Position numbers and translations under genes: made by a program | Part shown: positions 11,042-13,041 of the stretch, in pieces | Layout: every line of letters starts with the position of its first letter | How positions within the stretch are numbered: position 1 is the stretch's first letter | Assembly (NCBI GenBank): GCA_001442985.1 | Contig: LDYB01000019.1 | Location: forward strand, 186,001-250,000 | From: Armatimonadetes bacterium DC | GTDB lineage: Bacteria; Armatimonadota; Fimbriimonadia; Fimbriimonadales; GBS-DC | DNA length: 64,000 nt | Direction of reading: 5' to 3' | The notes under the pieces: model-generated | Databases searched by the model: none | The model's input: the letters and a program-made list of their open reading frames with translations, nothing else | What the model was told of the DNA's origin: nothing

Positions 11042-11335
11042 TTAGCAGGGCGGGGCACGGGGGATGAGAGGTTTCAGAGGAACAGAAAACAACTCCGCAA
11101 CGCAATCCGCAACAACCTGTAACGGCTCAGAGAGTGCAGGAGGCGCAAGGGCTTTAAGACTCTGCTGAAGAGGGCTGTCGGGTTGCGCCGGAGCTTTCTG
11201 GAGCGTACACACGAAACAGTCGCTCGACGGCTCCAGCGGATGGTGCGTCAGCGGGTGCAACACGAAGCCCGCCAGCCAGGCGAGCATCAGCACCACCAGA
11301 CTCCACACCGCAAAACGCCGTGAGCGCTGACGCAT
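11042..11335 (-). CDS. Small membrane protein with HP..HH...CFVC motif (DUF2946-like)
   Basis: MRQRSRRFAVWSLVVLMLAWLAGFVLHPLTHHPLEPSSDCFVCTLQ. Confidence 0.55.
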   Translation of the reverse strand: MRQRSRRFAVWSLVVLMLAWLAGFVLHPLTHHPLEPSSDCFVCTLQKAPAQPDSPLQQSLKALAPPALSEPLQVVADCVAELFSVPLKPLIPRAPPC

Positions 11336-11431
11336 CGCCTTAATTATACCCCGTCGTACCAGCGCCGCGCGTTTTTGGAGAATTTGGGGGGAATTTTGCT
11401 CCCAATTTGCCCTTAAATTCCCCTTAACCCC

Positions 11432-11461
11432 TTGACAAACGCCCCATGGATGTGGTATAAT
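11432..11461 (+). promoter_or_regulatory. Consensus sigma70-type promoter with extended -10
   Basis: TTGACA (11432-11437), 18-bp spacer ending TGG, TATAAT (11456-11461). Confidence 0.85.
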
Positions 11462-11467
11462 ATCTGC

Positions 11468-11795
11468 GTCGTTGGGGAAACCCGACGGCGCTCGCCCGAG
11501 TGCAGTCAGGATGCCCTGCTGTCGGGAGCCGAGCGGCAGTTCTTCCAGAGCCGTTGCGCCGGCAGCGGCGATGGAGAAAGATGCCAATCGGAGTAATGCG
11601 AGTCAGCCTGCGCCCCAGTTAGGCGACTCGTAAGCGGCAGATAGGAACTGCGTTCAGGCAGACCGTTCCCTCAGAAGAGGGGGCAGGAGACCTCAGGATC
11701 GGGGGCAACCTCGGTCAAGGCTCCGAAGCTGTACAGCACGGTCTGTACCCGCAGAACCGAAAAGGCGCCCTGAACCAGCACTCGGGCTTTTTCAT
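11468..11795 (+). ncRNA. Unidentified structured RNA or leader RNA (candidate)
   Basis: Follows the consensus promoter; 15-bp interrupted hairpin 11489-11535; further hairpins; GCCCGAGTGC (11494-11503) exactly complementary to GCACTCGGGC (11778-11787), which is followed by TTTTT; no conserved ORF. Confidence 0.6.
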
Positions 11796-11835
11796 TTTCG
11801 GGTATCATGAACTCGAAGCCACAGGAGGTACAACC

Positions 11836-13041
11836 ATGCAAAACACACTCAAGACTGTGCGTGACTTCCGCTCCGATAAGTTCTTTGTAACCTCGCTCTA
11901 CCTCAGTCTGACCCCTCAGGAACGCGCGACACGCCCCCCAATGTATCAAACGCGACTCAAAACCCTCCAGAACCAGCTCCGCCACTGGCTGGACGACCAC
12001 CCGATGGACCCCGACGCCCGCGAATCGGTAGAGCAGGACTTCAAGCGCATGATGGATTTTATCGATGAGCCCAAAAACCTGCTGGGCGAGAACTCGCTCC
12101 CCGTGCGCGGGATTGCTCTCTTTTCCTGCTCTGCAGAAGGCTTGTTTGAAGCGGTGCGACTGCCCTATGTGGAGCGCAACACCCTCGTGGTGGACAAAAC
12201 CCCCTACATCCGCCGGCTGTTCGCTGTAGAAGCCGATTTTGGGGTCAATCTCGTGGCGGTCTTCGACCATCGCGATGCGCACTTTTATCAGGTGGACATC
12301 CACGGCATTCGGGAACTGGAATCGTTCCGCTTCTCTCGCGATAGGGAAGTGTTGCCCCCGGGGGTGCATGGGGTTCGAACCCCGGCAGGCATGCGGGCGT
12401 TGCACGGGATGGGCGAGCGCAATGTGCAGATGCTCAAGCAGCATGAGCAACAGCAACACCTGCGCCATATTGCAGATACCTTGCTTCAGTTGAGGCGTAC
12501 CCATCCGTTTGACCGTCTGTTGATTGCCGCCCCAGACGACTTAGCCAGCGCGTTTCCAACTTACCTGCACGACTATGTACGCCGTACCTTCGCAGGCACA
12601 ATCGCGGCGCACGATAAGATGCCTGTCAATCAGCTTTACGAGCGCGTGCTGGACAAAATTCTGGAGCTGGATCGCGAGCAGGAGAAGCGACTCCTGCAAG
12701 AGTTTAACGAAAGCATTCCTCATCTGGCGATGTCGGGCATAGACCCCGTGCTGAAGGCGCTGGAGTGGGGTAATGTGCGCGTGTTGCTCTATGACACGGA
12801 CTACTCGGTGCCCGGTTGTGTGTACTATCCGTCGGGACTGCTCGGCTTGTACCCAGAACACGCGCCCGAAGGCACCGAAATGATCTGGATGCTGCCCGAT
12901 ATTGTGGACACCGTAGTGGAGCGGGCACTGGAGCAGGGCGCCCAGATTGAGGCGGTTCACGCGCCTGAAGCAAAGGCAGAGATTCACGGTGTGAGCGCCA
13001 TTCTGCGCTACCCGATGAGCGTGGGGGAGAGTGTAGACTAA
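11836..13041 (+). CDS. Bacterial archaeo-eukaryotic release factor-like protein (baeRF/eRF1 superfamily)
   Basis: VEADFGVNLVAVFDHRDAHFYQVD; HxADTLLQL...FDRLLIAAP; SD aggagg; family assigned from recalled motif pattern. Confidence 0.65.
   Translation: MQNTLKTVRDFRSDKFFVTSLYLSLTPQERATRPPMYQTRLKTLQNQLRHWLDDHPMDPDARESVEQDFKRMMDFIDEPKNLLGENSLPVRGIALFSCSAEGLFEAVRLPYVERNTLVVDKTPYIRRLFAVEADFGVNLVAVFDHRDAHFYQVDIHGIRELESFRFSRDREVLPPGVHGVRTPAGMRALHGMGERNVQMLKQHEQQQHLRHIADTLLQLRRTHPFDRLLIAAPDDLASAFPTYLHDYVRRTFAGTIAAHDKMPVNQLYERVLDKILELDREQEKRLLQEFNESIPHLAMSGIDPVLKALEWGNVRVLLYDTDYSVPGCVYYPSGLLGLYPEHAPEGTEMIWMLPDIVDTVVERALEQGAQIEAVHAPEAKAEIHGVSAILRYPMSVGESVD

Follow-up and report, generated by a model that had tools for sequence, protein, structure and literature searches.

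A putative gene for a ~325 nt RNA with a conserved many-armed fold in a group of Armatimonadota bacteria

The window analysed here (64,000 nt of genomic DNA) contains a locus that appears to be the gene for an RNA of ~325 nt with a conserved many-armed fold, present in a group of Armatimonadota bacteria. This is almost certainly a real, stand-alone structured RNA: as is characteristic of stand-alone structured non-coding RNAs (ncRNAs), it has its own promoter, a compensated secondary structure, no conserved open reading frame (ORF) and variable gene neighbours. It is uncommon for a large conserved RNA of bacteria to be missing from Rfam, and several earlier examples proved to form the core of unusual machines made of RNA or of RNA and protein. 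The RNA described here offers a complete, covariation-backed secondary structure in named genome records (including AP024673.1), with boundaries sufficient for its direct synthesis and study, and gives the poorly studied phylum Armatimonadota a probable core RNA.

Promoter and transcript ends

The features listed in the original prediction for this locus were all found in the window sequence, beginning with the promoter and the RNA that follows it:

11432..11461, + strand: sigma-70 type promoter (TTGACA at 11432-11437, 18-nt spacer, TATAAT at 11456-11461, extended -10 TG)
11468..11792, + strand: noncoding RNA, predicted transcript of ~325 nt, with homologues found by blastn and covariance model and a common structure

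The promoter matched the consensus at 12/12 positions as claimed, with 0.2 such sites expected in shuffled sequences. The sequence TTGACAAA...GATGTG.TATAAT was kept across the family, with the same promoter located 5′ of the homologues, and the RNA would be transcribed from a promoter of its own. The ends at 11468 and 11792 were placed from the promoter and the U tract, respectively. A U-rich tract lies directly 3′ of the closing helix in most copies, and in the window the TTTTT immediately after 11778-11787 is a probable terminator, which is weak by simple rules (local stem of 5 bp); the closing helix may double as the transcription terminator. The 326-nt region had a predicted folding energy of -169.3 kcal/mol, versus -126.6 ± 5.8 kcal/mol for dinucleotide shuffles (z = -7.3).

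Upstream of the -35 sequence (11365-11431), AT tracts recur every ~10 bp and CTTAA repeats every ~11 bp (CCTTAA...CCTTAACCCCTTGACA), which are conserved in much of genus g5 and absent from HRbin15, and which possibly represent curved DNA or an activator site. Phosphate regulation via the CTTAA repeats was considered and dropped, as HRbin15 lacks them at its RNA promoter.

Homologues detected in Fimbriimonadales

Homologues were detected in 16 of the 18 genomes of the window's own family (Fimbriimonadales, Armatimonadota), with blastn reaching most of these genomes and a covariance model extending the set to 16. Strongly diverged copies were present in G020 and G018, which represent two other families of Fimbriimonadales; the G020 copy was first matched by a model built without G020 (E = 5e-4), and both copies were recovered with the gapped motif TAGGA - GNRA hairpin - CCGAA. 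This motif was found in 13/292 genomes of the phylum, all within the window's own family and the families of G020 and G018, while a reversed control pattern matched three unrelated genomes. A model of the 3′ arm gave E = 8e-14 and 2e-11 for the two distant copies, values that are not independent, as both copies are part of its alignment, which covered the 3′ arm alone. The named records carrying the core motif are Fimbriimonadales/Armatimonadota metagenome-assembled genomes (MAGs), including KatS3mg018 (complete genome AP024673.1), HRbin15 and JP3_11. A recognisable copy was missing from G005 (94% complete) and G010 (85% complete), and the genomes sampled from f5 and the large family f3 yielded no convincing match, which shows that the RNA is not universal even inside the order.

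Among the homologues the RNA ranges from roughly 280 to 430 nt with one conserved architecture. The G018 homologue (L080, - strand, ~1418-1848) is ~430 nt long and has extra hairpins in the 5′ arm. The MAG SKW30 contains, at the end of a 1639-base contig (L069), a second, partial and differing copy of the RNA, which may come from a contaminating strain in the MAG instead of being a paralogue. Several other matches were judged to be chance or chance-like and were discarded, as they lacked the promoter and the motif order: a pattern match in Nitrospinaceae (L067), blast matches in two f3 genomes (L015, L016) and weak model matches (L078, L079, L081-L084). The discarded matches fall mostly in coding-like DNA.

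A covarying secondary structure over nearly the full length

The conserved architecture consists of a 5′ GNRA hairpin (P1), a closing helix (P2/P3), a 5′ arm (P4-P5-P6) and a 3′ arm (P7-P8) bearing P9, P10 and P11. In the window the elements are as follows:

11468..11489, + strand: P1, 5′ hairpin with GNRA tetraloop, starting at the predicted start site
11494..11503, + strand: 5′ strand of P2, closing helix, GCCCGAGTGC
11507..11515, + strand: 5′ strand of P3 (CAGG..GCC), partner 11764-11772
11519..11524, + strand: 5′ strand of P4 (CTGTCG), base of the 5′ arm, partner 11635-11640 (CGGCAG)
11529..11591, + strand: P5 arm, 11529-11534 with 11586-11591, inner hairpin 11553-11566
11597..11632, + strand: P6 hairpin with conserved C-rich loop GCGCCCCAG, 6/9 pairs compensated
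11635..11640, + strand: 3′ strand of P4 (CGGCAG), followed by conserved ATAGGAAC
11644..11758, + strand: 3′ arm, with P7 (11644-11650/11752-11758) and P8 (11660-11665/11739-11744)
11668..11681, + strand: P9 hairpin CCCTC-AGAA-GAGGG, 4/5 pairs compensated
11686..11724, + strand: P10 hairpin GGATCGG.G-GCAA-C.TCGGTC with GNRA loop, the most conserved element
11728..11737, + strand: P11 hairpin GCTGTACAGC
11764..11772, + strand: 3′ strand of P3, partner 11507-11515
11778..11787, + strand: 3′ strand of P2, GCACTCGGGC, then TTTTT

A covariation analysis, as suggested in the original prediction, revealed compensatory changes in 55 of the 86 pairs among 16 family members after realignment, with 96.8% of the alignment cells paired (53/86 compensated in the first alignment of the same 16 sequences). 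When partners were slid by 1-3 columns, only 33-40% of cells were paired, and 0/500 shuffles reached the observed values. As alignments of this sort lean towards structure, the same pairs were mapped onto a structure-blind MAFFT alignment of 14 sequences, where 32/86 were compensated and 96.1% of cells paired, versus 33-40% for slid partners.

The changes are spread over the individual helices. P1 has 9 pairs, with both partners changed in four of them (99% of cells paired), and P2 has 6/10 pairs compensated with 100% of cells paired. The P2 strands read GCCCGAAACG/CGTTTCGGGC in L059 and GCCCAAGTGC/GCACTTGGGC in L058, and thus both strands have changed together. In P3 and P4, 6/8 and 5/6 pairs are compensated, respectively; the register of P4 initially given by RNAalifold (CTGCTGT/GCGGCAG) was replaced by CTGTCG/CGGCAG, which is still paired in divergent members. 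The two innermost pairs of P5 are non-standard in the window copy. The unpaired joining segments AGTAA, ATAGGAA and CCGAAAA are also conserved, and P10 is kept in the two other families of the order. Besides the proposed helices, a search for pseudoknots gave no clear covarying stem.

Single-sequence minimum-energy folds of the two distant copies (z = -6.4 and -7.4) share a layout of 5′ GNRA hairpin, long closing helix, two arms and a GNRA hairpin in the 3′ arm, and the single-sequence folds of L059 and L058 show the same layout in broad outline.

The long-range helix is conserved, the local 5′ hairpin is not

The exact 10-nt complementarity between 11494-11503 and 11778-11787, followed by TTTTT, had been noted in the original prediction, and this is the covarying closing helix P2. 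The accompanying proposal that the 5′ segment alternates between this helix and a local hairpin, as in a switch-type leader, was not supported. In the local hairpin (CCCGA-GCAG/CTGC-TCGGG) only 1/9 pairs was doubly changed, which is no better than shuffles (272/500), and pairs are broken in several members; furthermore, its 3′ strand belongs to the covarying P4 (11519-11524 with 11635-11640), with which the local hairpin is incompatible. Two further hairpins named in the prediction are present as complementary stretches but are not conserved pairings, and compete with P7/P8 and P11; the conserved partners are instead GGAACTGC with GCAGAACC (11751-11758) and CAGACCGT with ACGGTCTG (11738-11745).

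These results bear on whether the RNA acts in cis on the downstream baeRF family 10 gene (11836-13041), as a leader or riboswitch with the local 5′ hairpin and the terminator-like long-range helix as its two states. The distance from the RNA to a downstream same-strand start codon is indeed 40-50 nt in the window, as in several relatives, and the window sequence can form only one of the two pairings at a time. Since the local hairpin lacks covariation, and covariation was seen only for the long-range pairing while P2 and P4 take up both strands of the local hairpin, the switch model was rejected. The downstream gene also differs in class between lineages. It encodes a baeRF family 10/host-attachment-type protein in the window, a PstB-like ABC ATPase in HRbin15 and a glycosyltransferase in L068. 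Most of genus g5 has a PilB-like T2SSE ATPase carrying an MshEN domain at this position, with an HDOD protein next in line, and inspection by eye identified a Gfo/Idh-like gene for L077 and, for L080 (G018), one resembling RNase G/E. Upstream of the RNA, a tRNA-Glu is found in several g5 genomes, and no gene neighbour was conserved among the homologue loci. As the neighbours vary between lineages, the RNA is best seen as a stand-alone gene, and we consider a role as cis-leader very improbable.

Two further observations were made next to the RNA. Just 3′ of it in HRbin15 (L066), ahead of the PstB-like ABC ATPase gene, is the sequence CTTAACCTCTTCTTAACAC, which resembles a Pho-box direct repeat, and in the window a divergent ORF resembling a small membrane protein (MRQRSRRFAVWSLVVLMLAWLAGFVLHPL...) is located upstream on the - strand (11042-11334).

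Coding potential and known RNA families

The only same-strand ORFs over the RNA are two short ones of 54 and 53 aa with TTG starts, and no reading frame was maintained among the homologues, so that a small-ORF reading was rejected. The Rfam covariance-model search, also proposed beforehand, gave no match in the window at the gathering cut-off (4227 families, Rfam 15), and the best match of a relaxed search (E up to 10) was a chance miRNA match with E = 7.3. On the homologue loci, Rfam recognised only the neighbouring tRNA, next to sub-threshold matches outside the RNA. Neither tRNA nor tmRNA was found in the window (ARAGORN for tmRNA).

The single copy, strong promoter and a length like that of RNase P RNA and tmRNA could fit a diverged housekeeping RNA (RNase P, tmRNA, 6S or SRP RNA), but three of these RNAs are found elsewhere in the same genome (G000; 2.85 Mb, 26 contigs). 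RNase P RNA (RF00010) is located at C19:346575-346911 (260.8 bits), tmRNA (RF00023) at C20:103480-103830 (168.3 bits) and SRP RNA (RF00169) at C16:356444-356542 (75.8 bits), which contradicts this reading for these three RNAs, and a weak 6S candidate (RF00013; 33.2 bits, below the Rfam cut-off) is likewise at another locus (C25:74602-74782). A housekeeping identity therefore has next to no likelihood, and the expectation of a closed ncRNA of about 320 nt outside the known classes was borne out by the absence of an Rfam match, the housekeeping RNAs located elsewhere and the strong covariation. The 6S candidates of relatives score 30-52 bits, and the Rfam 6S model may underfit Armatimonadota.

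Proposed role of the RNA

Judged from sequence and its conservation, the best overall explanation is probably that of an ncRNA gene with its own promoter, encoding a folded core that acts in trans and is likely to be a ribonucleoprotein scaffold. A tertiary fold is in keeping with the conserved joining segments and both GNRA loops, through which the RNA would form a stable three-dimensional core. Combined with these features, the constraint over nearly the full length favours a folded core or scaffold in trans. The RNA would thus most likely act as a ribonucleoprotein scaffold, and not as a switch or antisense RNA, with the chances of the scaffold role itself appearing evenly balanced.

A trans-acting antisense function would have the C-rich P6 loop (GCGCCCCAG) pair with G-rich ribosome binding sites, with the remainder of the RNA serving as a stabilising frame. 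The loop sequence GCCCCAG is almost invariant in the family, the divergent L059 included. However, the matching hairpin in the copies of the two other families appears to carry a GAAA loop, and structural constraint extends over nearly all of the RNA, which is not typical of sRNAs that act by pairing, making an antisense function unlikely.

Taken as a folded core, the RNA may represent a large structured class specific to Fimbriimonadales lineages, forming the core of an undescribed ribonucleoprotein or being itself catalytic, beside the RNase P, tmRNA and SRP RNAs; we give this about an even chance.

Comparison with known large RNAs

The RNA resembles type A RNase P RNA (RF00010) in length, closing helix and GNRA loops, but does not match RF00010, and a clear RNase P RNA is encoded elsewhere in the genome. 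Its size and elaboration are similar to those of the HEARO/omega RNA, which is 343 nt in Limnospira maxima (PMC12286853), as would suit a ribozyme or an RNA component, similar to HEARO/omega RNA, of an RNA-guided enzyme whose protein is encoded elsewhere. Against this, Rfam HEARO was unmatched, a search of 16 family genomes gave no nuclease with the IscB/IsrB-type RRXRR domain, the RNA is single copy with no nuclease or transposase adjoining it in the loci read, and no match turned up in collections of plasmids, phages and viral sequences at the search sensitivity applied, which renders the reading quite improbable. The same searches led us to discard a phage or plasmid origin.

The ROOL and GOLLD RNAs are, like the RNA described here, large and elaborate RNAs defined by covariation, and their function is unknown, with GOLLD often >800 nt and encoded by phages or prophages (PMC12286853). 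Both are longer, and our RNA was without match in the phage collection or viral contigs. OLE RNA, another large elaborate RNA discovered by covariation, is also longer (577 nt in C. acetobutylicum, with at least six protein partners; PMC12286853) and showed no sequence or model match. The raiA motif RNA (205 nt for the C. acetobutylicum construct) has a solved monomeric fold and an incompletely understood cellular role (PMC12286853); both are stand-alone structured bacterial RNAs, which differ in length and lack Rfam-level similarity, with the RNA of the window found in Armatimonadota only. In the open-access literature, to which the comparison was confined, no paper linked Armatimonadetes, Armatimonadota or Fimbriimonadales with structured or small RNAs, and none described this RNA. 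We regard it as a probable new family among the large orphan RNAs of bacteria, a kind that is already known.
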